Shown piece by piece: positions 1 to 11,306 of a DNA stretch of 11,306 nucleotides. Positions within the stretch are counted from its first letter, which is position 1. Every line of letters starts with the position of its first letter. The notes beneath the pieces are model-generated. The model was not told where the DNA came from, made no database searches, and saw only the letters and a list, made by a program, of their open reading frames with translations. This DNA comes from an uncultured Oscillospiraceae bacterium (GTDB taxonomy: Bacteria > Bacillota > Clostridia > Oscillospirales > Oscillospiraceae), in assembly GCA_944385305.1 (NCBI GenBank), contig CALWWS010000149.1:1-11306 (forward strand), read 5' to 3'. The translations under genes and the position numbers were made by a program.

Positions 1-128
1 ACGGGATGCCCGCCGGCACCGACCTGCTGCGCCTCTATGTCCAGGCCACCGGCGCGCCGGTGGACACGGTGACCCCCTCCTTCGGGGGCAACTCTATCCC
101 CCTGGCCGACTTCCGGGACGGCTGGTAA
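1..128 (+). CDS. 3' end of an unrecognised protein (partial)
   Basis: The reading frame is open from the window edge, with codons starting at position 3, and ends at TAA 126-128. The visible C-terminal 41 residues begin GMPAGTDLLRLYVQ and end IPLADFRDGW. There is no cysteine cluster, membrane segment or motif that I recognise. Codon use is GC-rich like the rest of the window and a strong terminator follows 20 bp downstream, so this is very probably the true end of a gene. No function can be assigned from the fragment. The LysR gene that follows is on the opposite strand and convergent with it, so the two do not share an operon. Confidence 0.7.
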   Translation, partial: GMPAGTDLLRLYVQATGAPVDTVTPSFGGNSIPLADFRDGW

Positions 129-148
129 AGCAAGTTTTAAACTACAAA

Positions 149-190
149 CCCCCGCCCGGCCATCTCCATGGCCGGGCGGGGGTATTTTGT
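149..190. terminator. Rho-independent terminator between convergent genes
   Basis: There is a perfect 14-bp GC-rich stem: left arm 149-162, right arm 169-182, with the 6-nt loop tctcca. On the plus strand it is followed by tattttgt, a short U-rich tract. It lies between the stop of the upstream plus-strand gene (128) and the stop of the minus-strand LysR gene (196). On the minus strand the stem is followed by a T-containing stretch (ggtttgtagttt), so it probably serves both transcripts. Confidence 0.85.
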
Positions 191-195
191 CCTTA

Positions 196-1089
196 TCAGC
201 AAAAGTCCTGGGTCTTTCGCTGGCGCAGGAAGTCTAGCACAGGGCGCAGGCTGGGGCTGTTCTCCGCCTCCGCCCGGTAGCACAGGTAGATGGGGTACTC
301 CTCCTCCAGCCCCACCACCTCAATCTCCTTGAAGGCCCCGGTGCGCAGCTCCTTCTTCACCGAGCTCATGGGCACGAAGGACAGGCCGAACTCCCGGAAC
401 ACCGCCGTCTTCACCGACTCGGTGGAGTCCAGGCTCATCACCGGGTTCAGCCCCGCCATGGCGGGGCCCAGGGTCTGCTCCAGAGGCTTGCGCTCGTGGA
501 AGATGTCCTCCAGCAGGATGATGGGGTAGCCCATGGCCTCCTCCAGGGTCATCCGCGCCGGCACCTTCAGCCCCGCCGCCGCCGCCAGGATGAGCCGGTC
601 GCTGCCCACCTTCACATACCGGATGTCCGGGTAGGGGCCGGTGAGATTCACATAGCCCACGTCGCTGATGCCGTTGAGCAGGTTGTTCTCCACCGCGTTC
701 ACCGTGGAGAAGGTGAGGTCGAAGTAGTAGTCCTGAAAGGCGGGATTGCGCTTGAGGGCGAAGATCATGCAGGGCAGGGCGTAGGTGGCCAGGGTGAGGT
801 TGGAGTCCACCCGCACCACCTTCCGGTCGTCGTGGAGCTGGTCGGCCTCCTCCCGGGCCTGGTGGTAGAGCTTGATGATGGTGCGGGCGTAGCTCTCCAG
901 CACCGCCCCCGCCTCGGTCAGGCGCACCCCCTTGTTGGTGCGCAGCAGCAGCCGGTGGCCGAAGTCGTCCTCCAGGCGCTTGATCTGCTGGCTGAGGGCC
1001 GGCTGGGAGACGTACAGCTTGGCCGCCGCCCGGGAGATGTTCCCCTCGTCCGCGATGGCCAGAAACCACTCCAGGCCCTTGATGTCCAT
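196..1089 (-). CDS. LysR-family transcriptional regulator
   Basis: A 297-aa protein of typical LysR length. The N-terminus (MDIKGLEWFLAIADEGNISR) begins the winged helix-turn-helix, whose recognition part AAAKLYVSQPALSQQIKRLE covers about residues 20-39. It is followed by the usual linker helix and a two-lobed periplasmic-binding-protein-like effector domain (about residues 90-290). I chose the ATG at 1087-1089 because it is preceded by a purine-rich AGGAGAGGGGAGAGGG stretch and matches the standard LysR N-terminus. A longer in-frame extension to 1251 would run through the promoter and repeats and is unlikely. The gene is divergent from the respiratory operon starting at 1312, the classic LysR arrangement, so it most likely controls that operon and itself. 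The effector is unknown. The family call is very secure; the target is inferred from position. Confidence 0.95.
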   Translation of the reverse strand: MDIKGLEWFLAIADEGNISRAAAKLYVSQPALSQQIKRLEDDFGHRLLLRTNKGVRLTEAGAVLESYARTIIKLYHQAREEADQLHDDRKVVRVDSNLTLATYALPCMIFALKRNPAFQDYYFDLTFSTVNAVENNLLNGISDVGYVNLTGPYPDIRYVKVGSDRLILAAAAGLKVPARMTLEEAMGYPIILLEDIFHERKPLEQTLGPAMAGLNPVMSLDSTESVKTAVFREFGLSFVPMSSVKKELRTGAFKEIEVVGLEEEYPIYLCYRAEAENSPSLRPVLDFLRQRKTQDFC

Positions 1090-1122
1090 GTTCCCTCTCC
1101 CCTCTCCTTGTCTCTCACCGGC

Positions 1123-1131
1123 AGTATACCA
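1123..1131 (-). promoter_or_regulatory. Candidate extended -10 promoter of the LysR gene
   Basis: Read on the minus strand, positions 1131 down to 1123 give TGGTATACT, an extended -10 element (TGn followed by TATACT). No good -35 hexamer lies 16-18 nt upstream, which is usual for extended -10 promoters. The predicted start point near 1116 gives a leader of about 27 nt containing the purine-rich ribosome binding site. Confidence 0.5.
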
Positions 1132-1160
1132 CAAACCCGCCGCCGGGGATAGGGGTTTGT
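1131..1160. repeat. Inverted repeat ACAAACCC...GGGTTTGT upstream of the LysR promoter
   Basis: There are two perfect 8-bp arms, ACAAACCC (1131-1138) and GGGTTTGT (1153-1160), separated by 14 bp. The repeat directly abuts the LysR extended -10 element and covers where its -35 region would be. It could be an operator or a weak cruciform/hairpin. It does not match a binding consensus I know. Confidence 0.4.
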
Positions 1161-1186
1161 TATAAGCAGCCCTTATACCTATAAGG
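1161..1186. promoter_or_regulatory. Candidate LysR-type operator (ATAA-N7-TTAT box plus a third half-site)
   Basis: Positions 1161-1177 form the interrupted palindrome TATAAG-N5-CTTATA, which contains ATAA-N7-TTAT (1162-1176). That is the spacing of LysR-family boxes such as the one described for CcpC. A third half-site, TATAAGG (1180-1186), makes a second perfect dyad CCTTATA-CC-TATAAGG (1171-1186) sharing the middle arm. LysR proteins typically bind one strong palindrome plus a weaker adjacent half-site, so this layout fits the divergent regulator. It lies about 50 bp upstream of the predicted LysR start point. Binding by this particular regulator is inferred. Confidence 0.6.
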
Positions 1187-1196
1187 AAGTTCCATC

Positions 1197-1225
1197 GGGA
1201 AATGATGCAATTTCCCTTGCAAGGG
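1197..1225. repeat. Overlapping dyads GGGAAAT/ATTTCCC and CCCTTGCAAGGG
   Basis: GGGAAAT (1197-1203) pairs perfectly with ATTTCCC (1210-1216) across the 6-nt spacer gatgca. The CCC of that second arm is also the start of a 12-bp perfect palindrome, CCCTTGCAAGGG (1214-1225). The two symmetries share 3 bp. They sit upstream of, or within, the likely promoter of the respiratory operon and could be a second regulator's operator. The palindrome does not resemble FNR, Rex or CcpA sites. Confidence 0.4.
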
Positions 1226-1245
1226 GGAGGAAAATTAGGTAGTCT
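1218..1245 (+). promoter_or_regulatory. Possible promoter of the respiratory operon
   Basis: TTGCAA (1218-1223) could be a -35 element with TAGTCT (1240-1245) as -10 after a 16-nt spacer. An alternative -10 is TATTCT at 1259-1264 with a poor -35. Both are weak matches, as expected for an activator-dependent LysR-controlled promoter. The position between the operator and the first gene makes sense, but the exact elements are uncertain. Confidence 0.3.
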
Positions 1246-1311
1246 AAACATACAGGATTATTCTGCCTATTTTTGGCTTGTTTGTGTAGGTTGACCGAAG
1301 GGGGTGTGACT

Positions 1312-1719
1312 ATGGGCCGGGACGCCCGCTGCATGGCGCTGCTGGCCGAGGGGGAGGGACTGCTGAACCGGTTCGGCGCGGCATTACCGGATCCCGATAG
1401 CCACCGCCGCACCGCCCGCCGGGTACTGGAGCAGCTGGAGGGGGAGCGGGGCGTCTACCTGGCCGCCGCCTGCCAGTGCCTGCACATCGCCCGGCTGCTC
1501 CACAGGGAGGAGCGCCCCACCCCCCGGACAGTGCTGCTGGGGGACTACTTCCAAAGCCGGTTTACCGCCCTCCTCCTCCGGCTGGACGCCCCCTGGCTCC
1601 AGGACGCCTTCGCCCGCTTTCTGGCCGGGGACGCCGCCCGGGCGGCGGCGGGAGTGCCCTTTGACAGCGCCGCCTTTGCCGACCTGGCCGGCGACCTGGC
1701 CGGCCGGGTGACCCCGTGA
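1312..1719 (+). CDS. Small HepS-like protein (putative non-catalytic partner of polyprenyl diphosphate synthase)
   Basis: A 135-aa protein, starting at the ATG preceded by GAAGGGGGTG. A TTG 39 bp upstream in frame is less likely. The middle reads LHIARLLHREE (about 57-67) and then TVLLGDYFQSRFTALLL (about 73-89). This parallels the downstream synthase, where MHTASLLHDDVVD is followed by the helix CGDFLLARAMELL. The catalytic DDxxD aspartates are absent here (LLHRE replaces LLHDD). HepS, component I of two-subunit heptaprenyl diphosphate synthases, is likewise a non-catalytic partner and has a similar conserved 'GD' helix. HepS is usually longer (around 250 aa), so this would be a minimal version. 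Its stop overlaps the GTG start of the synthase gene, implying coupled production. I infer it is a subunit controlling chain length or stability; the assignment is moderate. Confidence 0.45.
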   Translation: MGRDARCMALLAEGEGLLNRFGAALPDPDSHRRTARRVLEQLEGERGVYLAAACQCLHIARLLHREERPTPRTVLLGDYFQSRFTALLLRLDAPWLQDAFARFLAGDAARAAAGVPFDSAAFADLAGDLAGRVTP

Positions 1720-2726
1720 GGGGGGGCGCGGCGGTGCTGGCTCCCCCCGCCGCCCGGGAGCAGGCCGCGGCCGTGGAGCGGCTGGAGATGTACTTATCCC
1801 GCCTGTGCGGGGGCAGCACCCCGGAAATTTCCCAGCAGACCCGGCGGGTCATCCTGGCCGGAGGCAAGCGGCTGCGCCCCCGGCTGGCCTGGCTGTGCGG
1901 CCGGATGGGGGGCGCGTCCACCGACGAGCTGCTCCCCCTGATGGCCATTCTGGAGCTGATGCACACCGCCTCTCTCCTCCACGACGACGTGGTGGACGGG
2001 GCGGCGGAGCGCCGGGGGGCGCCCACGGTACAGATGCTGCTGGGGGAGCGGGCCGCCGTGCAGTGCGGCGACTTCCTCCTGGCCCGGGCCATGGAGCTGC
2101 TGGGCGCCTACCAGGGCACCGGCGTTGGCCCCCTGATTGCCGATACCTTTACCGCCATGTGCCGTGGGGAGCTGGAGCAGCTGGCGGCGGCGGAGCGCCC
2201 GGCGGGGCAGACCCTGGCGGGCTATTACCGGCGGATGAAGGCCAAGACCGCCCGCCTCATCCGCACCTGCTGTCAGGCCGGGGCCATGGCCGCCGGGCTG
2301 GAGGGGGAGACGGTGGAGGCCCTGGGCCGGTACGGGCTGCACCTGGGCCTGGCCTTCCAGCTGCGGGACGACCTGCTGGACTTCGCCTCCCCCGCCCACA
2401 CGGGCAAGCCCCGGGGACAGGATCTCCGCCGGGGGCTGCATACCCTCCCCGTCCTCTACGCCCGGGCCCATGACCGGGCGCTGGCGGCCCACCTGGCCCG
2501 CCCCGTCCGGGGACGGGAGGAGCTGGACGGGCTGCTGGAGCGGGTGTGCCGCAGCGGCGGACTGACCGTTGCCCAGCGGGCGGTGGAGAAGAGCGCTTCC
2601 GCCGCCCTGGCCGCCCTGGCCCCCCTGGCCCGCTTTCCCCAGACCCCCACTCTCATGGAGTACGCCCATATTCTTGCCCGCCCTCTTCCGGCGGCACTTT
2701 TTCAAACGGAAGACGCCACAGTATGA
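1716..2726 (+). CDS. Polyprenyl diphosphate synthase (long-chain, trans)
   Basis: A 336-aa class I trans-prenyltransferase that condenses isopentenyl diphosphate units onto an allylic diphosphate, probably making the side chain of (demethyl)menaquinone. Visible motifs are GGKRLRP (49-55), the first Asp-rich motif DDVVD (90-94), the second motif DDLLD (218-222) and the following GKPRGQD...G...TLP block (230-245). The residues 4 and 5 positions before the first Asp motif are Ser and Ala; small residues there are characteristic of long-chain enzymes (C30 and above). The GTG start overlaps the preceding TGA (GTGA), so it is translationally coupled to the HepS-like gene. The stop overlaps the ATG of the dehydrogenase gene (ATGA). 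Family certain. The exact chain length is unknown. The quinone role is inferred from the adjacent respiratory genes. Confidence 0.93.
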   Translation: MRGGAAVLAPPAAREQAAAVERLEMYLSRLCGGSTPEISQQTRRVILAGGKRLRPRLAWLCGRMGGASTDELLPLMAILELMHTASLLHDDVVDGAAERRGAPTVQMLLGERAAVQCGDFLLARAMELLGAYQGTGVGPLIADTFTAMCRGELEQLAAAERPAGQTLAGYYRRMKAKTARLIRTCCQAGAMAAGLEGETVEALGRYGLHLGLAFQLRDDLLDFASPAHTGKPRGQDLRRGLHTLPVLYARAHDRALAAHLARPVRGREELDGLLERVCRSGGLTVAQRAVEKSASAALAALAPLARFPQTPTLMEYAHILARPLPAALFQTEDATV

Positions 2727-4009
2727 ATCACATTGTCATTGTGGGCGCCGGATACGCCGGCGTCCATGCGGCCAAAACCCTGGAAAAGCGGCTCAGGGGC
2801 CGCCGGGACGTGGCCGTCACCCTGGTCAACCGGGACCGCTTCCACGTACTTATGACCTCCCTGCACGAGATCGCCGGGGGCCGGGTGGACAAGCAGGCGG
2901 TACGCATCCCCCTCCACGACCTGTTTGCCTCGGGGATCGTGCGTCTGGTGACCGACACGGTGGAGGAGGTGGACTACCAGGGCAAGACCCTCCGCCTGGC
3001 CAGCCATCCCCCCATCTCCTTCGACTACCTGATCCTGGCCACCGGCAGCCGCCCCAACTACTTCGGCATTGAGGGGGCGGCGGAGCACGCCATGCCCCTG
3101 TGGTCCCTGGCCGACGCTCTGGCGGTGCGCCGGATGGTGTCCGGCCGGTTTGAGCAGGCCGCCCAGTGCGCCGACCCCGCCCGGCGGCGGGAGTTGCTCT
3201 CCTTCCTGGTGGCAGGAGGCGGCTTCACCGGGGCGGAGCTGGCCGGCGAGCTGGCCCGCTGGTGCCCCAGGCTCTGCGCCCACTACGGGCTGGACCGGGG
3301 GGAGGTCTCCCTCACCCTTATCGAGGCCATGTCCGCCATCCTGCCCAACCTGGGCCCCCAGGCGGGGAGCCAGGCGGCGGCCAAGCTGGAGCGGATGGGG
3401 GTGAAGGTGCTCACAGGGGCCAAGATCGTGAAGGTGGAGGAGAACGCCGCCTGCCTGGCCGACGGCGCCCGCCTGCCCGGCCGCCTTGTCTGGACGGCGG
3501 GCATTGAGGGCAATCCGGTGAACGCCGGGCCCCTTCCTCTCAACAACCGGGGCCGCTTCCAGGTGGACGGCTGCATGTGTGCCGGCGGCTGCGTCTTTGC
3601 CGCCGGGGACGCCCAGACCTATGTGGAAAATGGCAAGCCCCTGCCCCAGATGGTGGAGGCCGCCGAGCAGACCGGCGCGGCGGCGGCGCTGAACGTGCTC
3701 CACGCCATCGACAAGGGAGCCCAGACCCCCCTGCGCACCCATCTCCACGGCTGCGTGGTCTCCCTGGGCAACAGGGACGGGGTGGCCCGGGTGATGGGCA
3801 TGAAGCTCTCCGGCTGGCCCGCCTCCATGATGAAGCACCTGATCAACGTGCGCTACTTCCTCCAGCTGGGGGATTTGGAGATGGTCTTTACCTACTTCCG
3901 CCACGAGTTCCGCACCCCCACCTATTCCATTCCCGAACCCCAGTATACTTTGACAGAAAGGACGGGATGTTCCCATGAGCAGGCAGGCGTACCGCAGCAC
4001 GCTCTCTGA
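2723..4009 (+). CDS. NDH-2-type NAD(P)H:quinone oxidoreductase (FAD-dependent)
   Basis: A 428-aa two-dinucleotide-binding-domain flavoprotein, usual NDH-2 length. The FAD-binding Rossmann motif GAGYAG lies at 8-13, ATGSRPNYF at about 106-114, and the NAD(P)H-binding motif VAGGGFTGAEL at 163-173. VWTAGIEGNP (256-265) and FAAGD (292-296) followed by LPQMVEAAEQTG (307-318) are the conserved C-terminal FAD/quinone-site region of NDH-2 enzymes. Known members are non-proton-pumping peripheral membrane proteins passing electrons from NADH to quinone. There is no transmembrane helix; the C-terminal region (about 365-395) contains hydrophobic/amphipathic stretches that could bind the membrane. It starts within the synthase stop (ATGA) and its last 35 bp overlap the molybdoenzyme gene. 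The sequence features fit NDH-2 better than sulfide:quinone reductase, but substrate is unproven. Confidence 0.85.
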   Translation: MNHIVIVGAGYAGVHAAKTLEKRLRGRRDVAVTLVNRDRFHVLMTSLHEIAGGRVDKQAVRIPLHDLFASGIVRLVTDTVEEVDYQGKTLRLASHPPISFDYLILATGSRPNYFGIEGAAEHAMPLWSLADALAVRRMVSGRFEQAAQCADPARRRELLSFLVAGGGFTGAELAGELARWCPRLCAHYGLDRGEVSLTLIEAMSAILPNLGPQAGSQAAAKLERMGVKVLTGAKIVKVEENAACLADGARLPGRLVWTAGIEGNPVNAGPLPLNNRGRFQVDGCMCAGGCVFAAGDAQTYVENGKPLPQMVEAAEQTGAAAALNVLHAIDKGAQTPLRTHLHGCVVSLGNRDGVARVMGMKLSGWPASMMKHLINVRYFLQLGDLEMVFTYFRHEFRTPTYSIPEPQYTLTERTGCSHEQAGVPQHAL

Positions 4010-6662
4010 GAGCGCGGGCACCATCCACACCCTGGAGTCCATGACCTCCCGCTGGGAGCGCATTGATCCCAGCGACGAGGGCAAGACCCAGGTGCTCCAC
4101 GGCATTTGCCGCATGTGCATGCAGGGGGACTGCGCCACCAAAATCACCCTGGAGGACGGCATCGTCACCCGGGTGGAGGGGGCGGGCACCGATATCCCCC
4201 CCAACTACGGCAACCTCTGCCCCCGGGGCAACTCCGCCGCCATGAACCTCTACAACCCCTACCGGGTGAAGGCCCCCCTCATCCGCACCAACCCGGAGAA
4301 GGGGCTGGACGTGGATCCCAAGTGGAAGGAGGTCACCTGGGAGGAGGCCCTGGACTACACCGCCAAAAAGCTCAAGGAGGTGCGGGACGAGGATCCCCGG
4401 GGCCTTGCCATCTGCGAGGGCTGGGGCAACCGGGAGACCATTGTGCGGGTGCCCTTCAAAATCGCCTACGGCACCCCCAACGAGATCGGCGCCCACGGCT
4501 CCTTCTGCACGGTGCACTACGGCACCGGCCTCATCCACGGCAACTTCCCCGTCTCCGTGGTGGATCTGGAGCACTGCGAGTACCACATCACCCTGGGGCG
4601 CACCATCGGCCCCAACTTCGCCACCGTACCCGGCACCCGCAAGCTCTCCCAGGCCCTGGAGCGGGGGATGAAGCTGGTGGTGGTGGACCCCCGCTCCTCC
4701 CACGAGGCGGCCAAGGGGGAGTGGGTGCCCATCAAGCCGGGCACCGACCTGGCCTTCCTGCTGGCCATGGCCCACTCCATCCTCTTCGAGGTGGGCCGCT
4801 ACGACGTGTGGTTTTTGAAAAACCGCACCAACGCCCCCTACCTCATCACCCCCGGCGGGGACTACCTGCGGGACGAGGCCACGGGCAAGCCCATGATGTG
4901 GGATCTCTCCGACAGCACCCCCAAGCCCTTTGACGCCTCCTTCGGCGATCTGGCCCTGGAGGGCAGCTTCGAGTGGAAGGGGCAGACCTGCTCCACCGGC
5001 TTTACCAAGATCAAGGAGGGCTTCAAGGAGTACACCCCCGAGTGGGCGGAGAAGATCTCCACCGTGCCCGCCGCCACCACCCGGCGCATTGCCCGGGAGT
5101 TCATCGACCACGCCCGCATCGGCAGCACCATTGAGATTGACGGCTTCACCTTCCCCTTCCGCCCCGTCTCCCTCAACTGCGAGCGCAACGTGATGAACCA
5201 CAAGGGGGGCACCCACGCCGACCTGGTGGGCAAGATCATCAACATGCTGGCCGGGGCCATCGAGGTGCCCGGCGGCTGCCTGGGCTGCGGCTACCGGGGG
5301 GGCGCGGCCATCGCCCCCAGCCCGGACGGCACCATGTTTCCCGGCTACGAGTCCCACGACCGGCCCTTTGTCTTCCCCCCCGACCTCACCATGCAGAGCT
5401 TCTACCCCAACAGCCACACCACCCCCCACCTCACCGCCGCCGCCCTGCGCAATCCGGAGGAGTACCACCTGGAGTACCAGCTCAAGGCGTGGCTCAACCT
5501 GGGGGGCAACCTCATCCGCTTCAACGCCGAGCCGGAGCAGTACATCGAGATGATGCGCAAGGTGCCCTTCAGCGTGTCCATCGCCTACCAGATGGATGAG
5601 CCCACCTTCCTCTCCGACGTGGTGCTCCCCGAGCACTGCTTCATGGAGCGGGAGCGGCTGGCTCCCTTCTGGCCCCAGCACCAGGCCACCTCCGACGAGG
5701 TGTCGGGGCTGCAGATGCTCCAGTACCGCCAGCCGGTGAAGCCCCTGTACAACACCATGCACGTGGACGACATCCTCATGGAGCTGGCCGAGCGCATCGG
5801 CATCCTCCGGGGTGAGGGCGGCGTGTACGACATCATGAACCACGACGTGGACTACATCATCAAGGAGGACGGCCTCAACCTGCGGGAGCCCTACCTGCTG
5901 GACATCAACACCAAACACACCCGCCAGGAGATCTACGAAAAGCAGGTGCTCAGCTGGAAGTACAACCAGGGGGAGACCTTCGCCGATGTGCAGCGGGAGG
6001 GCCACCTGGTGAAGTGGCAGCCCAAGAAGACCCACTACACCTACTATTACTACCCGGACAACCAGACCCGCCACGAGTTCTACATCATGAACCTCAAGCA
6101 CACCGCCGACCGGCTGCGGGCCAACCTGGAAAAGCACGGGGTGAAGTTCCCCGGCGTGGCCGACCAGGAGCGGGACGTGTTCCGGTTCTACAACCCGGTG
6201 CCCTTCTGGACGGGCAGCCCGGAGCTGGACGACATCCCCCCGGAGTACGATCTCTGGGCCATGAACTGGAAGTCCCCCTACTTCTCCTCCGACGTGGGCG
6301 GCTGCATCGGCAACCCCTGGCTGGCGGAGGTCTACAAGAAGGACCCCTGGGAGGCGGTCATCTGCCTCAACGCCGCCACCGCCGCCCGCAAGGGCCTCAA
6401 GGACGGGGACTGGGTGAAGGTCTCCTCCCGGTACGGCAGCGTGGAGGGCCAGGTGCGCACCTCCCAGCTCTTCCACCCCGACGCGGTGGGCATTTCCGGC
6501 GGCTACGGCCTGGGCAGCCTGCACTCCAATCCCCTCTACCGCCGGGGCCCCCTGTTCAACCAGCTCATCACCTCCCGGGAGGACACGCTGGATCCCATCA
6601 GCGGCGGCATTGAGCTGGCCCCCTGCGTGAAAATTGAAAAGAAGGAGGGTGGGCGCGCATGA
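3975..6662 (+). CDS. Molybdopterin (bis-MGD) oxidoreductase, catalytic subunit, substrate unknown
   Basis: An 895-aa DMSO-reductase-superfamily protein. The N-terminal [4Fe-4S] domain has C45, C48, C53 and C82 (CRMCMQGDC, then LCPRGN); the Cys-x4-Cys spacing between the second and third is slightly unusual. The molybdopterin core follows (about 100-600). C178 in GSFCTVHYG is the likely Mo ligand by position. The C-terminal dinucleotide-binding domain is at about 760-890 (LNAATAARKGLKDGDWVKV). The stretch YNPYRVKAPLIRTNPEKG resembles, from memory, anaerobe-specific reductases of the polysulfide/thiosulfate reductase and catechol-dehydroxylase-like groups. No twin-arginine signal or hydrophobic leader precedes the Fe-S domain, so the enzyme should be cytoplasmic. 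The chosen ATG has AAAGGA 12 nt upstream; ATG 4041 is an alternative that avoids the overlap. It forms a complex with the next two gene products. Family certain; substrate not determinable. Confidence 0.93.
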   Translation: MSRQAYRSTLSESAGTIHTLESMTSRWERIDPSDEGKTQVLHGICRMCMQGDCATKITLEDGIVTRVEGAGTDIPPNYGNLCPRGNSAAMNLYNPYRVKAPLIRTNPEKGLDVDPKWKEVTWEEALDYTAKKLKEVRDEDPRGLAICEGWGNRETIVRVPFKIAYGTPNEIGAHGSFCTVHYGTGLIHGNFPVSVVDLEHCEYHITLGRTIGPNFATVPGTRKLSQALERGMKLVVVDPRSSHEAAKGEWVPIKPGTDLAFLLAMAHSILFEVGRYDVWFLKNRTNAPYLITPGGDYLRDEATGKPMMWDLSDSTPKPFDASFGDLALEGSFEWKGQTCSTGFTKIKEGFKEYTPEWAEKISTVPAATTRRIAREFIDHARIGSTIEIDGFTFPFRPVSLNCERNVMNHKGGTHADLVGKIINMLAGAIEVPGGCLGCGYRGGAAIAPSPDGTMFPGYESHDRPFVFPPDLTMQSFYPNSHTTPHLTAAALRNPEEYHLEYQLKAWLNLGGNLIRFNAEPEQYIEMMRKVPFSVSIAYQMDEPTFLSDVVLPEHCFMERERLAPFWPQHQATSDEVSGLQMLQYRQPVKPLYNTMHVDDILMELAERIGILRGEGGVYDIMNHDVDYIIKEDGLNLREPYLLDINTKHTRQEIYEKQVLSWKYNQGETFADVQREGHLVKWQPKKTHYTYYYYPDNQTRHEFYIMNLKHTADRLRANLEKHGVKFPGVADQERDVFRFYNPVPFWTGSPELDDIPPEYDLWAMNWKSPYFSSDVGGCIGNPWLAEVYKKDPWEAVICLNAATAARKGLKDGDWVKVSSRYGSVEGQVRTSQLFHPDAVGISGGYGLGSLHSNPLYRRGPLFNQLITSREDTLDPISGGIELAPCVKIEKKEGGRA

Positions 6663-7264
6663 GATACGGCATGCTCATCGACCTGAACAAGTGCGTGGGC
6701 TGCAACGCCTGTACCGTGGCCTGCCGCAACAACAACGGCACCCCCGCCGGGGTGAGCCTGCACAAGCTGCTCAAGTACGAGGCCGGGGTGTACCCCAACG
6801 CCAAGATGAAGTTCCGGCCCATGCCCTGCATGCACTGTCAGGACGCCCCCTGCGCCAAGGTGTGCCCCACCGGGGCCACGGTGCAGCGCCCCGACGGCAT
6901 TGTGGATGTGGACGCCAACAAGTGCATCGGCTGCCGCAGCTGCATCACCGCCTGCCCCTACGACTCCCGCCAGTTCATCTGGGACTTCGGGGACTACTAC
7001 GAGCAGGCCCAGCCCACCCGGCTGGAGCAGAAGCGCCGTCTGGAGTTCCAGAAGGGCACGGTGGTCAAGTGCACCTTCTGCCTGACCCGGCTGCAGCAGG
7101 GCAAGGTGACCGCCTGCACCGCCACCTGTCCCTCCCAGTGCCGCGTCTTCGGCGATCTGGACGACCCCAACAGCGAGGTCTCCCGGGCCATCGTGGACAA
7201 GGGGGCCCGCCCCTTCCGCGAGGAGCTGGAGACTCACCCGTCCGTGTACTACGCGGGCGGCTAG
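6659..7264 (+). CDS. Four-cluster ferredoxin-type electron transfer subunit (DmsB/PsrB family)
   Basis: A 201-aa iron-sulfur protein that wires the molybdoenzyme to its membrane partner. All sixteen expected cluster cysteines are present: C12/C15/C18/C22, C57/C60/C65/C69, C89/C92/C95/C99 and C138/C141/C153/C157. The arrangement is that of DmsB, PsrB and NrfC proteins carrying four [4Fe-4S] clusters. It begins directly with MRYGMLIDLNKCVGC, without a signal peptide or C-terminal anchor, consistent with a cytoplasmic location alongside the catalytic subunit. The start overlaps the upstream stop by 4 bp (ATGA), so the two subunits are translationally coupled, which favours equal amounts. The NrfD gene follows after 18 bp. 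No missing ligands or truncation. Confidence 0.95.
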   Translation: MRYGMLIDLNKCVGCNACTVACRNNNGTPAGVSLHKLLKYEAGVYPNAKMKFRPMPCMHCQDAPCAKVCPTGATVQRPDGIVDVDANKCIGCRSCITACPYDSRQFIWDFGDYYEQAQPTRLEQKRRLEFQKGTVVKCTFCLTRLQQGKVTACTATCPSQCRVFGDLDDPNSEVSRAIVDKGARPFREELETHPSVYYAGG

Positions 7265-7282
7265 GAAGGAGGGGGATAAACT

Positions 7283-8314
7283 ATGCCACTGCTGATTCTG
7301 CTGGCCATTCTGGCCGTCATCGCCATCGTATGTATCTTCCACCAGCTCTCCCGTGGCTTTGCCAAAACCAACCTGAACGACCAGTACACCTGGGGTCTGT
7401 ACATCCAGGGCTTCTTCTTCCTGGTGTCCGCCGGGGCGGGGGCGCTGATGGTGCTCTCCATGCTCACCCTGGCCCAGGTACCCATGCCCGCGGGCTTTGC
7501 CGACTTCGGCAACGCTCTGGCCTTCACCCTGCTCATCGGGGGCATGGTAATTCTGGGTCTGGATCTGGGCAAGCCCATGCGCATCTTCTACATGATCACC
7601 AGCAAAAACTTCAAGTCCCCCCTCATCTGGGACTTCTACACCCTGGGCCTCACCGCCCTGCTCAGCCTGCTGTTCCTCTTCCCCTTCCTGTCGGAGAGCG
7701 GGGTGGGCAGCCAGGTCTGGGCCCTGCTGATGCTGCTGGCCGCCGGAATGTGCGTGACGGTGCACGCCATGTTCTTCCCCGCCCATGAGAAGGGGGGCAA
7801 CCAGGCCAACCTCTTCCTGGTGTTTGACACCTTTCTGTTCAGCCTGTCCGGCGGATGCGCCCTGCTCACCCTGATGGGGGCCTACCTGGGGCTCTCCCTG
7901 CCCCTGCTCTCCCGGTGCCTGTTCCTGCTGGCCATCCTGCTGCTCCTCTCCGCCGCCGGGCACAAGATCGCCCCCCTGCGCAGCGGGAGGGACGGTCTGC
8001 TCACGGTGTGCAATCTGCTCAAGATTCTGGTAGTTGTCCTGCTGGCCGTGTGGCAGTGGGCCGCGCCCACCCAGGGCCTGGCCGTCGCCGCCGCCGCCCT
8101 GGCTCTGGTGCTCCTCTTCCTGGAGAAGTACCACACCGTGGCCCACGCCCAGCACGAGCCCCCCATCCCCGGCACCTACGGGAGCCACCGCCCGGCGGCC
8201 ACCTACCGCCCGGCGGCCAAGGAGTGGCTCATCTTCATCGGCGGATTTTCCATCTGCCTGCTGCTGTGGGCGGGGATCTGCCTGCTGAAGGGGATCTGGC
8301 CGTGGACGCTGTAA
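7283..8314 (+). CDS. NrfD/PsrC-family integral membrane quinone-binding subunit
   Basis: A 343-aa highly hydrophobic protein with about nine to ten predicted transmembrane helices (near 2-19, 40-63, 77-95, 117-136, 144-164, 178-202, 208-226, 239-258, 264-280 and 315-336). The motif DLGKP (94-98) followed by FKSPLIWDFY (110-119) is typical of NrfD/PsrC proteins, the heme-free membrane subunits that exchange electrons between quinones and the attached Fe-S protein. A strong ribosome binding site (AGGAAGGAGGGGG) precedes the ATG. A polar loop rich in H and P (about 285-312) precedes the last helix. Its 3' end overlaps the start of the chaperone gene by 13 bp. In context it links the quinone pool to the molybdoenzyme. 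Electron direction (quinol oxidation or quinone reduction) is not proven, though the adjacent NDH-2 suggests quinol oxidation. Confidence 0.92.
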   Translation: MPLLILLAILAVIAIVCIFHQLSRGFAKTNLNDQYTWGLYIQGFFFLVSAGAGALMVLSMLTLAQVPMPAGFADFGNALAFTLLIGGMVILGLDLGKPMRIFYMITSKNFKSPLIWDFYTLGLTALLSLLFLFPFLSESGVGSQVWALLMLLAAGMCVTVHAMFFPAHEKGGNQANLFLVFDTFLFSLSGGCALLTLMGAYLGLSLPLLSRCLFLLAILLLLSAAGHKIAPLRSGRDGLLTVCNLLKILVVVLLAVWQWAAPTQGLAVAAAALALVLLFLEKYHTVAHAQHEPPIPGTYGSHRPAATYRPAAKEWLIFIGGFSICLLLWAGICLLKGIWPWTL

Positions 8315-8925
8315 CCGCCGCCCGGGGGCACCTCTACTCCTTCTTCTGCGGCCTGCTCGCCCCCCTGCCCTCGGCGGGGCTGCTGGAGCAGCTCACCCGG
8401 GGGGAAAACCTGGCCTATCTGGACGTGCTGCGCGGGCTGAACCAGGCGGAGATTACCGCCGGAGCGGAGGAGTTTGCCGCCTACCTGGGAGGCCTCACCC
8501 CGGAGATCACCTCCGGGGAGGTGGCCAGGCTGGCGGTGGATCGCACCGCCCTGCTCCGCGCCACCGGCGCGGGCGGGGTGAAGGCCCCCTATGAGCGCCT
8601 CTTCCGCCCCAAGAGCGAGGAGGAGACGGTGATCCCCGCCGTGCAGGCCTTCTACCGCCGGGCGGGGCTGCGCCAGCCCAACGCCCTGCAGGAGGCCCCC
8701 GACTACCTGCTCACCCAGCTGGAGTTTCTGGCCAACCTGTGCCTCCAGCAGGACACCCTGCCCCAGGCAGACCTGCTGTGCCGGGAGTTCTTCACCACCC
8801 ACGCGGGAACCTGGATGCCCGACTGGGCCGCCCAGGCCGCTCAGGCCGCCCAGACCGGCTTCTACCGGGGGGCGCTGGGCATGCTCTCCGGCTTCCTGCG
8901 CCTGGAGGGAGAGTTCTTCCAGTAA
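8302..8925 (+). CDS. TorD-like chaperone for molybdoenzyme assembly
   Basis: A 207-aa, mostly helical protein of the TorD/DmsD family, cytoplasmic chaperones that bind molybdoenzyme catalytic subunits during cofactor insertion. The diagnostic motif EAPDYLLTQLEFLANL (131-146) matches the family pattern E-x-PDH-x3-EL-x-F. Family-typical segments YERLFRP (97-103) and FFTTHAGTWMPDWA (163-176) are also visible. I chose the GTG at 8302 because it is preceded by GAAGGGGAT at good spacing and opens with MDAVTAARGHLYSFF, a normal TorD N-terminus. This makes a 13-bp overlap with the NrfD gene. The longer open frame upstream lies inside the NrfD gene and is spurious. As the last gene of the operon, it presumably matures the 895-aa subunit. 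With no Tat signal on that client, it would act in cofactor loading rather than export proofreading. Confidence 0.85.
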   Translation: MDAVTAARGHLYSFFCGLLAPLPSAGLLEQLTRGENLAYLDVLRGLNQAEITAGAEEFAAYLGGLTPEITSGEVARLAVDRTALLRATGAGGVKAPYERLFRPKSEEETVIPAVQAFYRRAGLRQPNALQEAPDYLLTQLEFLANLCLQQDTLPQADLLCREFFTTHAGTWMPDWAAQAAQAAQTGFYRGALGMLSGFLRLEGEFFQ

Positions 8926-8946
8926 ACGCCATTTCCGTTTTTGAAA

Positions 8947-8978
8947 AGGACGCCCCGGCCGATTGGCCGGGGCGTCCT
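8947..8978. terminator. Bidirectional terminator hairpin between the respiratory operon and the SASP gene
   Basis: A perfect 14-bp GC-rich stem: left arm 8947-8960, right arm 8965-8978, loop gatt. On the minus strand it is followed by TTTTCAAAAA, so it works best as the terminator of the SASP transcript. On the plus strand it lies 21 bp after the chaperone stop but is followed only by ctctgctt, a weak U-tract. Confidence 0.8.
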
Positions 8979-9045
8979 CTGCTTGGGGGGAGTGGGTTCA
9001 GGCCCCTCCCCGCCGGCTGAATTTGTCTTTCCCTTTCGGGGAAGG

Positions 9046-9249
9046 TTACTTCATGTTGTTCTCGTAGGCCTCGATCATCTTCTTGACCATCTGGCCGCCC
9101 ACGGAACCGGCCTCACGGCTGGTCAGGTCGCCATTGTAGCCCTGCTTCAGGTTGACGCCCACCTCCTGGGCGGCCTCCATCTTAAACTTGTTGAGAGCCT
9201 CGCGGGCGCTGGGGACAACAGCCTGGTTGGAATGATTGGAACTGGACAT
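9046..9249 (-). CDS. Alpha/beta-type small acid-soluble spore protein (SASP)
   Basis: A complete 67-aa protein of the usual SASP length. It has the family core KMEAAQEVGV (about residues 23-32), which includes the germination-protease recognition region. The conserved second half follows: GYNGDLTSREAGSVGGQMVK (about 37-56). These proteins coat DNA in the forespore core, protecting it from UV and heat, and are degraded at germination to supply amino acids. The ATG has a good ribosome binding site (AAGGAGAT) 9 nt upstream. The gene stands alone, convergent with the respiratory operon and divergent from the fumarase genes, as is normal for ssp genes. Expression is expected only in the forespore under sigma-G. 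It shows that the organism belongs to an endospore-forming lineage. Confidence 0.96.
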   Translation of the reverse strand: MSSSNHSNQAVVPSAREALNKFKMEAAQEVGVNLKQGYNGDLTSREAGSVGGQMVKKMIEAYENNMK

Positions 9250-9280
9250 AAGTCTTACATCTCCTTGTCTGTCAAATTTG

Positions 9281-9297
9281 TTGGATTGGGAATCCGA
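9281..9297. repeat. Small dyad in the SASP leader
   Basis: GGATT (9283-9287) and AATCC (9291-9295) form a 5-bp stem with a GGG loop, extended by a T-G wobble and a T-A pair. It would lie in the 5' leader of the SASP mRNA if the sigma-G promoter proposed here is right. It is small and may be chance. Confidence 0.2.
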
Positions 9298-9321
9298 ACA
9301 TAGCTTTGCCCCGGACGGTTT

Positions 9322-9350
9322 TTCTATGCGCTCCGCCTTCTGCTAATTCA
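9322..9350 (-). promoter_or_regulatory. Candidate sigma-G promoter of the SASP gene
   Basis: On the minus strand TGAATT (9350-9345) and CATAGAA (9328-9322) resemble the sigma-G -35 (TGAATA-like) and -10 (CATACTA-like) elements. The spacer is 16 nt, one or two shorter than usual. The leader would be about 65 nt. The call rests on the gene being an ssp gene. Confidence 0.4.
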
Positions 9351-9387
9351 TGGCCCTTTTGACAGCTTGGCCCGCTGCGCTTTTTCT

Positions 9388-9416
9388 TTGCTATTTCACA
9401 GGGGCCGTGCTAAAAT
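9388..9416 (+). promoter_or_regulatory. Candidate vegetative promoter of the fumarase genes
   Basis: TTGCTA (9388-9393), a 17-nt spacer and TAAAAT (9411-9416), preceded by TGC to give an extended -10 element, together form a good sigma-A-type promoter. The predicted start near 9423 leaves a leader of about 56 nt. A second TGATAAAAT at 9451-9459 has no matching -35 and lies too close to the ribosome binding site. Confidence 0.55.
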
Positions 9417-9478
9417 AACAGCATCCATCTGTTTTTCACAAGTTCTATTTTGATAAAATACGAAAGGGAGGGATCGCT

Positions 9479-10312
9479 GTGAGAGAGCTTGACGCCGCCC
9501 TGCTCACCGAAACGGTGGCCCGGCTGTGCATCCAGGCCAATCTCCGCCTGCCCGAGGATGTAAAGGAGCGCATCCAGGCCGCCCGGCAGGAGGAGGACTG
9601 GCCGGTGGCCCGGAATATTCTGGACAACATCATGGAAAACTACTCCATCGGCGGGGAGGTGCCCATCTGCCAGGACACCGGCATGGCCTGCGTCTTTCTG
9701 GAGGTGGGCCAGGAGGTACACATCCGGGGGGACGTCACCCAGGCGGTGAACGAGGGCGTGCGCCGGGGCTATGAGGAGGGCTACCTGCGCAAGTCCGTGG
9801 TGCGCGACCCCCTGGACCGGGTGAACACGGGGGACAACACCCCCGCCATGATCACCTATGAGCTGGTGCCCGGGGACAAGGTCACCGTCACCGTGGCCCC
9901 CAAGGGCTTTGGCAGCGAGAACATGAGCCGCATCGCCATGCTCAAGCCCTCCGACGGGGCGGAGGGGGTCAAAAATTTCATTGTGGACACGGTGGAGCAG
10001 GCGGGCCCCAACCCCTGCCCCCCCATTGTGGTGGGTGTGGGCGTCGGCGGCACCTTCGACAAGTGCGCCCTGCTGGCCAAAAAGGCCCTGCTGCGCCCCC
10101 TGGGCCAGCCCAGCCCCCTGCCCTTCTACCAGGCGATGGAGGCCGAGCTGCTGGAGCGGATCAACGCCCTGGGCATCGGCCCCCAGGGCTTCGGCGGGCG
10201 CACCACCGCCCTGGCGGTACACATCGAGACCCTGCCCACTCACATTGCCGGGCTGCCCTGCGCGGTGAACATCAACTGCCACGTGACCCGGCATATGACG
10301 GAGGTGATCTGA
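9479..10312 (+). CDS. Fumarate hydratase class I, alpha subunit
   Basis: A 277-aa N-terminal half of a class I (iron-sulfur) fumarase, which interconverts fumarate and L-malate using a [4Fe-4S] cluster as Lewis acid. The three likely cluster ligands are C64 in PICQDTG, C180 in NPCPPIVVGVGVGG and C267 in INCHVTRH. Other family features are NTGDNTPAM (116-124) and PKGFGSENMS (141-150). The GTG start is preceded by AAAGGGAGGGA; no better ATG lies upstream. The beta subunit gene follows after one base. The related two-subunit L(+)-tartrate dehydratase has the same architecture and cannot be excluded. Class I enzymes are oxygen-sensitive, which fits a strict anaerobe. The gene has its own promoter and is not part of the respiratory operon. 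Confidence 0.9.
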   Translation: MRELDAALLTETVARLCIQANLRLPEDVKERIQAARQEEDWPVARNILDNIMENYSIGGEVPICQDTGMACVFLEVGQEVHIRGDVTQAVNEGVRRGYEEGYLRKSVVRDPLDRVNTGDNTPAMITYELVPGDKVTVTVAPKGFGSENMSRIAMLKPSDGAEGVKNFIVDTVEQAGPNPCPPIVVGVGVGGTFDKCALLAKKALLRPLGQPSPLPFYQAMEAELLERINALGIGPQGFGGRTTALAVHIETLPTHIAGLPCAVNINCHVTRHMTEVI

Positions 10313-10313
10313 C

Positions 10314-10880
10314 ATGGCCAGACATATTACCGCGCCTCTCACCCCGGAAACCGCCCGCAGCCTGCGGGCGGGGGAGAGCGTGCTCCTCTCGGGCACGGTG
10401 TACACCGCCCGGGACGCCGCCCACAAGCGCCTGTGCGCCCTGGTGGCGGAGGGCAAGCCCCTGCCCTTCCCCATTGAGGGATCGGTCATCTACTTCGTGG
10501 GCCCCTCCCCCGCCCGGCCGGGGCAGCCCATCGGCTCGGCGGGCCCCACCACCAGCTACCGCATGGACGCCTACTCCCCCACCCTCCTGGCTCTGGGCCA
10601 GCTGGGCATGATCGGCAAGGGCAAGCGCAGCAAAGAGGTCATCGACGCCATGGTGAAGGCGGGCGCGGTGTACTTCGGCGCCATCGGCGGCGCGGGAGCC
10701 CTGCTGGCCAAGTGCGGGCAGGCCTCCCAGCTGGTGTGCTCTGAGGGTCCCGCCCCCGACGCCATCCGCCGCCTGGAGGTGGAAAACCTCCCCCTCACGG
10801 TGGTCATTGACAGCACAGGGGCCAACCTCTACGAGACCGGCCGGGCCGCCTATCTGGCCTGGCGGAAGCAGGAGAAGTAG
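10314..10880 (+). CDS. Fumarate hydratase class I, beta subunit
   Basis: A 188-aa protein corresponding to the C-terminal domain of single-chain class I fumarases. Conserved family segments include LSGTVYTARDAAHKR (25-39), GPTTSYRMD (77-85) and GKGKRSKEV (101-109), followed by AVYFGAIGGAGAL (118-130). It lies one base after the alpha-subunit stop. A near-perfect Shine-Dalgarno (GGAGGTGAT) is embedded in the end of the alpha gene, so the two are co-translated to form the heteromeric enzyme. It ends just before a long hairpin terminator. The alternative identity is L(+)-tartrate dehydratase beta subunit. Nothing in the neighbourhood (no tartrate transporter) favours that reading. Confidence 0.9.
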   Translation: MARHITAPLTPETARSLRAGESVLLSGTVYTARDAAHKRLCALVAEGKPLPFPIEGSVIYFVGPSPARPGQPIGSAGPTTSYRMDAYSPTLLALGQLGMIGKGKRSKEVIDAMVKAGAVYFGAIGGAGALLAKCGQASQLVCSEGPAPDAIRRLEVENLPLTVVIDSTGANLYETGRAAYLAWRKQEK

Positions 10881-10927
10881 CAGCAATCCCCCCTGCCGGG
10901 ACGGCAGGGGGGATTGCTGTCTGTCTG
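10881..10927. terminator. Terminator hairpin after the fumarase genes
   Basis: A perfect 18-bp stem (10881-10898 with 10902-10919) and a 3-nt loop gga begins at the base after the beta-subunit stop. It is followed on the plus strand by tctgtctg, a moderate U-tract. It lies between convergent genes and could also serve the minus-strand gene ending at 10932, although that side lacks a T-run. Confidence 0.75.
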
Positions 10928-10931
10928 GGCG

Positions 10932-11306
10932 CTATTCCAGGGTCAGGGGGCAGACCGTCTCGCCAATGCGCAGGCCCACGATGTCACCGGGATCCAGGGG
11001 CTCCTTGTCTCCGCACTGGTAGCTGTATTGCCAGAAGCTCCCGTCTCCCAGACCACCTCCCGAGCCGCTGGGCGGCCACTCGGTGCCGTCCTTCAGCAAA
11101 AAAACGGGGGTATTTTCCTCGTACCAGACGCGGTCGAAGTCCTCCAGCGTAGGGTTGAACTGAGCGAAGGCCCCATCCAGGCTGGTGAAGGTGGCTACAA
11201 TCTCCAGAGGGGTGCAGCTCACTGTCTCCAGTACGGCGGTCTTGTCTCCAATCTTGAACTCCAGCTCCGGCACAAAGTCCCGGGCATTGTTTTCCGACGG
11301 AAGGGT
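10932..11306 (-). CDS. C-terminal part of an unrecognised protein (5' end outside the window)
   Basis: The frame is open from the window edge to the TAG at 10932-10934 and shows the last 124 residues. An internal GTG at 11271-11273 is in frame, but there are no stops in the eleven codons upstream, so the gene most likely starts outside the window. The visible part is acidic and beta-rich in appearance: FKIGDKTAVLETVSCTPLEI near the front, a glycine/serine stretch PSGSGGGLGDGS in the middle, and DPGDIVGLRIGETVCPLTLE as the last 20 residues. The ending resembles C-terminal domains of some Firmicute membrane-anchored or anti-sigma-factor-like proteins, in which a loop 'DPxDIxxLxIGdxxxPL' closes the chain. 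I cannot confirm that and assign no function. Confidence 0.65.
   Translation of the reverse strand, partial: TLPSENNARDFVPELEFKIGDKTAVLETVSCTPLEIVATFTSLDGAFAQFNPTLEDFDRVWYEENTPVFLLKDGTEWPPSGSGGGLGDGSFWQYSYQCGDKEPLDPGDIVGLRIGETVCPLTLE

Follow-up and report, generated by a model that had tools for sequence, protein, structure and literature searches.

We analysed an 11,306-nucleotide stretch of DNA from an uncultured Oscillospiraceae bacterium (assembly GCA_944385305.1, contig CALWWS010000149.1, positions 1 to 11,306; hereafter "the window"), in which seven plus-strand genes, overlapping or at most 18 bases apart, form what is likely a respiratory operon around a molybdoenzyme complex (Table 1). 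Pfam families match six of the seven proteins: polyprenyl_synt (2.5e-56) in the HepT-like synthase, Pyr_redox_2 (1.4e-36) in the type II NADH:quinone oxidoreductase (NDH-2), Molybdopterin (1.1e-16) in the catalytic molybdenum (Mo) subunit, Fer4_11 (1.8e-18) in the Fe-S subunit, NrfD (4.4e-13) in the membrane subunit, and Nitrate_red_del, the TorD family (4.6e-14), in the chaperone (E values in parentheses). The cysteine spacing of the Fe-S subunit fits four 4Fe-4S clusters. Such part-by-part homology makes chance open reading frames an unlikely reading of the operon and, with the coordinates, confirms the packed seven-gene arrangement proposed in a preliminary description of this DNA, which omitted the divergent LysR gene and the hairpin behind the operon.

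Table 1. Features of the operon and its immediate flanks (positions in the window)
Feature	Positions	Strand	Basis
HepS-like small subunit of a two-part polyprenyl diphosphate synthase, 135 aa (tentative)	1312-1719	+	place before HepT; profile match
HepT-like polyprenyl diphosphate synthase, GTG start	1716-2726	+	PF00348; PDB match
NDH-2, type II NADH:quinone oxidoreductase, 428 aa	2723-4009	+	Pfam; solved NDH-2 structures
Catalytic (Mo) subunit of bis(molybdopterin guanine dinucleotide) (bis-MGD) type, 895 aa	3975-6662	+	Pfam, profiles, tree
Fe-S subunit, 201 aa, 17 cysteines	6659-7264	+	DsrO/ArrB/NrfC-type by NCBIfam scores
NrfD/PsrC-type membrane subunit, about 10 transmembrane helices	7283-8314	+	Pfam, aligned helices
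TorD/NarJ-family chaperone, GTG start	8302-8925	+	Pfam
LysR-type regulator, divergent from operon	196-1089	-	family models; homology to LysR of locus L019
LysR-operon intergenic region, presumably regulatory	1090-1311	.	position
Hairpin behind operon, 14-bp stem and 4-base loop	8947-8978	+	folding against shuffles

The Mo subunit has the ligands expected of a cysteine-type enzyme. Its 4Fe-4S cysteines (C45, C48, C53, and C82) are invariant in 23 aligned rows, and its Mo ligand, C178, aligns with the cysteine of PsrA, PhsA, and ArrA; the close rows all have cysteine there (39 of 39), as do 67 of a further 69 rows, with a gap in the other two. Among solved structures, ArrA (195 bits) and PsrA (190 bits) lead the profile ranking, followed by trimethylamine N-oxide reductase (115 bits) and, lower, by perchlorate reductase, formate dehydrogenase, nitrate reductase, acetylene hydratase (84 bits), and pyrogallol hydroxytransferase (33 bits). 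An AlphaFold model of the subunit (mean pLDDT 80) likewise has ArrA and PsrA as its nearest structures by Foldseek. Membership in the PhsA or the ArrA family can nevertheless be rejected by the equivalog models, which score 190 bits against a cut-off of 694 for PhsA and 141 against 1600 for ArrA.

A tree of 123 rows places the window enzyme in a six-row clade (support 100) nested in a 112-row clade (support 100), outside which fall PhsA, PsrA, ArrA, the Sulfuricella enzyme, FdhF, FdnG, NapA, DmsA, and TorA, together with the second Mo enzyme of the host and the relative of ~30% identity from G026; the tree came from a quick method that gave long-branch warnings for the reference enzymes, and its PsrA and ArrA rows are of only quarter length. 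We found no characterised member of the 112-row clade. An IGST...P[FYW]R pattern occurs in 67 of the 112 clade rows and in none of nine other full-length enzymes, and is not to be taken as a strict signature because the PsrA and ArrA pieces stop short of it. The second molybdopterin-family enzyme of the host lies on another contig (L092, contig C159, 8101-10164, minus strand; E 2.4e-37). At least two enzyme homologues stand together in several loci of environmental metagenome-assembled genomes (L030, L031, L032, L036, L053, L066, L068, L079, and L081), which suggests a radiation of substrates. Small ThiS-like proteins, both below the Pfam cut-off, adjoin the enzyme gene in distant members, upstream in L050 (2391-2681) and downstream in L035 (4298-4639), and are perhaps sulfur carriers for cofactor synthesis.

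We scanned genome contigs and kept the best 80 of 126 loci, 18 of which (L003-L016, L019, L020, L023, and L024) match at least about 48% of residues over most of the enzyme; we call these close loci and leave out L018 (truncated, 65%) and L017 (42%). The window Mo subunit has no pair of arginines within its first 60 residues, and thus no twin-arginine translocation (Tat) signal. Among the close loci a clear Tat signal is found only in L020, with further cases in the more distant L021, L022, and L026; the arginine pairs of the L007, L009, and L016 enzymes are not trailed by a signal-like hydrophobic stretch.

The charge pattern of the membrane subunit is consistent with an enzyme that stays inside the cell. 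Helix prediction was irregular and gave no clear bias for L003, L005, and L024, so we used aligned helices, sorted the loops between them into two sets (A and B, one per membrane side), and counted lysines and arginines, finding 9 versus 0 in the window NrfD. Of 55 NrfD rows from non-Tat systems, 54 have the larger count in set A, and all four rows from Tat systems have it in set B; with the third, conserved loop omitted, A exceeds B in 52 of the 55, equals it in two (L011 and L015), and is lower in one (L017). The lone non-Tat exception, L017, has an enzyme gene cut at a contig end, which hides its Tat status. These 59 rows include none from L023, and those from L011, L044, L050, L054, and L063 are incomplete. 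The Tat set (L020, L022, Sulfuricella, and Escherichia coli NrfD) was chosen by hand; L036, flagged by the Tat rule, was judged false and counted as non-Tat, the hydrophobic stretch after its arginines being the Fe-S motif, and L021 and L026 have Tat-like enzyme starts and no NrfD row. Together with the positive-inside rule, the pattern predicts a complex that faces the cytoplasm, with its NrfD subunit inverted relative to those of Tat-exported relatives. This prediction is the new element of our analysis. The quinone site of NrfD-type proteins is described as lying on the outer side in the majority of cases (PMC13059093), and among titles and abstract openings of the open-licence PMC literature we found none describing an inverted NrfD complex or the gene combination of the window.

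The genes ahead of the complex point to quinone chemistry with differing clarity. Residues 2-382 of the 428-aa NDH-2 align with solved enzymes of this type (YjlD, E 1.2e-62), and the protein is 38% identical to its homologue in L003. HepT matches PF00348 at 191 bits, and its best PDB match is component 2 of heptaprenyl diphosphate synthase (9kp1_B; E 3.3e-45); TIGR02748, its best NCBIfam match, scores 206 of the 457 bits set as the equivalog cut-off. The HepS-like protein is the weakest gene call of the operon: it has no Pfam or NCBIfam match, a database search to E 0.001 gives five proteins (a 96% copy and four relatives), and a profile of the protein and these four relatives has, up to E 10, a single PDB match, component 1 of that synthase (9kp1_A, E 0.27), which makes the assignment a putative one. 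The operon HepT is also the only PF00348 match in the 1.8-Mb host assembly (about 80% complete), where an IspA-type synthase is likewise unseen, a reminder of the incompleteness of the assembly.

We find homologues for the later steps of menaquinone synthesis elsewhere in the host and no sign above cut-off of the earlier ones. A single UbiA-family gene, on another contig, has 1,4-dihydroxy-2-naphthoate (DHNA) polyprenyltransferases as its best NCBIfam models (151 bits, below the cut-off of 277) and adjoins a UbiE/MenG gene that scores above its cut-off; DHNA is the substrate of MenA. Within the incomplete assembly the head-group markers MenD (best 68 of 244 bits), MenB (139 of 343 bits), and PF02621 (MqnA/D; 22 of 26 bits) all stay below their cut-offs, and the same searches in 14 control genomes pass for MenD in 7, MenB in 7, and PF02621 in 4. 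The pattern extends to the 17 genomes with a close enzyme (the host plus 16 that cover the 18 loci, L012/L011 and L023/L010 sharing assemblies), for which completeness is known in the host only: the UbiA family is present in all 17 (four weakly), MenD above cut-off in none, and PF02621 in two. Of 20 UbiA loci, 11 have a UbiE or HepT homologue in the 1.5 kb fetched to each side, and two more are the L019 and L024 operons. The named relatives of the host UbiA, among the best 120 of 1415, are from Gordonibacter, Raoultibacter, Paraeggerthella, Arabiibacter, Parasporobacterium, and Family XIII bacteria. Markers below cut-off combined with MenA and MenG homologues predict precursor scavenging, in which the naphthoquinone head would probably enter the cell as a precursor from other microbes; a need for quinones or DHNA has been described in gut bacteria (PMC5738691).

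Comparison of gene neighbourhoods separates a conserved core from a variable periphery. Genes for the Fe-S subunit are present in 17 of 18 close loci, for NrfD in 17 (L009 and L011 by Pfam, L012 among the aligned NrfD rows, and the other 14 in the neighbourhood comparison itself), and for TorD in 14, and the Mo, Fe-S, NrfD, and TorD genes co-occur repeatedly across several phyla. A LysR homologue lies near the enzyme in 8/18, all from records whose titles name Bacillota, Firmicutes, or Clostridiales bacteria, or else Sinanaerobacter. NDH-2 stands directly upstream of the complex in four (L003, L004, L005, and L014), and quinone-prenylation genes (HepT and UbiA) lie beside it in three (L006, L019, and L024), downstream and on the opposite strand in L006. 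The exact seven-gene order of the window recurs in none of the 18 close loci, which counts in part against the preliminary description, as does the lack of a head-group marker above cut-off; parts of the order are nevertheless kept, namely the Mo, Fe-S, NrfD, and TorD set and, in the four loci named, NDH-2 ahead of it. The most similar named loci, L019 and L024 (enzyme 73% identical), read LysR (divergent), UbiA, Mo, Fe-S, NrfD, TorD, HepT, MoeA, and MobB, with a MobA-like gene close (gene families read directly for L019 and by similarity for L024). Between the window and L019, LysR is 58% identical (297 aa), as against only 33% for HepT; set beside the enzyme value, this makes the quinone genes look separately recruited. 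On our reading of these sequences, the inherited core would be the complex genes (plus LysR in Bacillota), which quinone-prenylation genes may have joined more than once, and repeated joining would itself support a link to quinones; an alternative for the low HepT identity is replacement or fast change of HepT.

The distribution of the enzyme is sporadic. Across 60 genomes (the host's own and 59 relatives), a close match occurs only in the host, with two matches of ~30% at E up to 1e-30, and in a sample of 391 genomes of the class the host alone passes E 1e-120. This mix-and-match occurrence, with the best named relatives at 73%, is in keeping with the plug-in chain offered as one option in the preliminary description. 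Among named relatives, the enzyme of Anoxybacterium hadale MT110 is 73% identical and that of Sinanaerobacter chloroacetimidivorans BAD-6 63%. Base composition gives no signal of recent transfer, with a guanine-plus-cytosine (GC) content of 68.1% in the operon, 63.5% in the rest of the window, and 65.0 and 66.2% in two host contigs; loci L019, L024, and L003 have a GC content of about 45%. The closest plasmid copy among the matches listed, on Sporomusa termitida pSPTER (L117), is 35% identical, and phage collections returned, among the matches listed, weak DMSO-reductase matches only. The pSPTER locus has genes for NrfD, Fe-S, TorD, LysR, and a sodium:solute symporter. Separately, an E. coli plasmid (L123) carries the thiosulfate reductase genes phsAB beside an IS26-family transposase gene, and phsA on Escherichia or Shigella plasmids accounts for 15 of the 30 rows listed.

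Several known systems resemble the operon in part. With PsrABC/PhsABC and ArrAB it shares a Mo subunit with a Cys ligand and an N-terminal 4Fe-4S cluster, as well as a four-cluster Fe-S subunit, and with Psr also an NrfD/PsrC-type membrane subunit, Psr and Arr being the best profile matches among solved structures; it differs from these complexes in the lack of a Tat signal, NrfD charges opposite to those of Tat-type relatives, and its separate clade. SoeABC, compared here by description only, is a cytoplasmic complex of Mo, Fe-S, and NrfD-like subunits reported to oxidise sulfite (PMC6335251), whereas the window adds NDH-2 and quinone-tail genes. One SoeA candidate that we examined, of 1142 aa and with no Fe-S or NrfD gene annotated next to it, was not SoeA-like. 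Catechol dehydroxylases are related to acetylene hydratase in a published family tree (PMC7028382); our profile scores acetylene hydratase below both ArrA and PsrA, and our tree was built without dehydroxylase rows.

The analogy drawn in the preliminary description with flavin-based extracellular electron transfer (FLEET) holds in one respect, the pairing of a dmkB-type polyprenyl synthase with ndh2 as in Listeria and Lactiplantibacillus, and fails in others. Further FLEET genes include eetA, eetB, pplA, and dmkA. In the scanned proteins of the window, dmkB-like and ndh2 were the only FLEET genes recognised (of the others, UbiA alone was sought in the remainder of the genome), so we do not assign the operon to FLEET, and its terminal partner is instead a molybdoenzyme complex predicted to face inward. 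Lactiplantibacillus is described as using exogenous quinones (PMC10746273), and quinone-dependent gut bacteria such as Faecalibacterium, Gordonibacter, and others are reported to combine respiratory genes with missing or incomplete menaquinone synthesis (PMC5738691), as the host may do. Unlike Faecalibacterium KLE1255, which that article describes as lacking menA and ubiE, the host has homologues of both in addition to the HepS-like and HepT proteins, from which use of a precursor is predicted.

Gene content, homology, synteny, the lone polyprenyl synthase, the MenA and MenG homologues, the head-group markers below cut-off, the tree position, the lacking Tat signal, and the NrfD charge pattern lead us to an explanation that we hold to be slightly better than an even bet: the operon encodes a cytoplasm-facing respiratory module that runs on a borrowed quinone head. 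NDH-2 would oxidise NADH and reduce (demethyl)menaquinone, whose tail would come from the HepS-like and HepT proteins of the same operon and whose head, DHNA or similar, would be supplied by neighbouring microbes, with the MenA and MenG homologues joining head to tail and methylating the product. The quinol would be re-oxidised at the NrfD subunit. By way of the Fe-S subunit with its four clusters, and then the 4Fe-4S cluster in the catalytic subunit, electrons would reach a bis-MGD centre with Mo (or W) and a Cys ligand, and this centre would reduce a cytoplasmic small molecule, perhaps an imported organic or aromatic acid. TorD would mature the enzyme, and LysR would probably sense the substrate. 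The direction of flow we infer from the place of NDH-2 before the complex, in the window and in four other loci, which speaks for the complex as the quinol-oxidising, substrate-reducing end. On that view one would expect a small-molecule substrate, present in the cytoplasm, whose potential exceeds that of menaquinone. Its class is a guess from the mix of neighbouring genes, a chosen part of which was scanned: Pfam identifies TRAP-transporter genes close to the enzyme in L007 and L009, and similarity to these does so in L014 and L016; L014 also has a DASS-type carrier, L006 an amino-acid permease (its homologue is in L008), L004 UbiD, L007 amidohydrolases, and the Sporomusa locus a sodium:solute symporter. 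The operon is real, and its respiratory reading, proposed earlier for an NDH-2 joined to a quinone-type Mo/Fe-S/NrfD complex, is likely and largely supported. That it is self-contained, as had been claimed, is not supported: for the later part of the quinone pathway the host has homologues (MenA and MenG) on a different contig, and for the earlier part none of the markers searched reaches its cut-off.

Two results weigh against this explanation and feed two of its rivals. A VIA-align comparison of the Mo-subunit model ranks formate dehydrogenases first (27.7, more than a tie), ahead of perchlorate reductase and acetylene hydratase (26.6), ArrA (26.2), and PsrA (25.1), and the incompleteness of the assembly means that the missing head-group genes may reflect gaps. 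The ranking would suit a complex working in reverse, as a cytoplasmic dehydrogenase of the SoeABC or formate dehydrogenase kind that feeds menaquinone, with NDH-2 as a second input and some other quinol oxidase downstream, and the existence of SoeABC (PMC6335251) lends this a precedent. Yet it would leave two quinone reducers in one operon, in the window and in the four loci with NDH-2 upstream, with no partner to oxidise the quinol within the operon, the only place examined for one, and the profiles place ArrA and PsrA on top. Formate dehydrogenase membership itself we reject, with the VIA-align ranking dissenting, because FdhF and FdnG fall outside the clade and the Fdh-alpha model scores 119 of 666 bits; the catalytic subunit accordingly does not cluster with formate dehydrogenases in the tree or by model scores. 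We regard reversed flow as unlikely.

We would give about the same low weight to the rival that takes up the gaps, namely that the host makes its own menaquinone with head-group genes in the missing fifth of the assembly, and that this is an ordinary Psr-like respiratory operon. The unseen IspA-type synthase speaks for it as well; against it stand three marker searches across two pathways with nothing above cut-off, and 15 of the 17 enzyme-bearing genomes without MenD or PF02621 above cut-off, the completeness of the other 16 not being given. Less probable again, and quite improbable in our view, is a cytoplasmic relative of enzymes that act on aromatic rings, the catechol dehydroxylases or others, with the NADH and quinone genes as incidental neighbours, a proposal that can draw on the Tat-less Gordonibacter dehydroxylases, which are thought to be soluble (PMC7028382), and on the UbiD, amidohydrolase, or TRAP genes near some relatives.

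At the flanks of the operon, the start of LysR at 1089 is set by the LysR models, which begin at residue 55 of the longest open reading frame, and a scan of the intergenic region found no match to the sigma-70 consensus. The 65 bases around the hairpin fold at -36.7 kcal/mol (z -3.5), a value equalled by 1 of 200 shuffles; the hairpin is a possible terminator, with no clear T-run, and is absent from the output of a terminator scan. Further downstream lie a gene for an alpha/beta-type small acid-soluble spore protein (9046-9249, minus strand; PF00269, E 1.6e-30), which makes it very likely that the host, an anaerobe, forms endospores, and the two genes of a class I fumarase (9479-10880, plus strand), whose alpha and beta parts exceed the cut-offs of curated models.

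Taken beyond the window, our analysis raises a wider proposal that we put forward tentatively, at somewhat less than even confidence: that a large clade in which we found no characterised member, spread over bacteria and archaea, has its complex reversed in the membrane, without a Tat signal and with NrfD inverted, and carries out a quinone-linked reaction on a new substrate in the cytoplasm, and that in the host and its relatives this complex forms part of a plug-in chain running on the quinone precursors of others. If the cytoplasm-facing module is right, it would define a testable family of inward-facing respiratory molybdoenzymes and a natural experiment on a reversed NrfD-type subunit, a kind of protein whose quinone site lies, in most known cases, toward the outside. 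It would also offer a gene-level case of respiration that depends on the quinone precursors of neighbours, for which cultivators would add DHNA, and would give chemists a place to seek a new electron acceptor.

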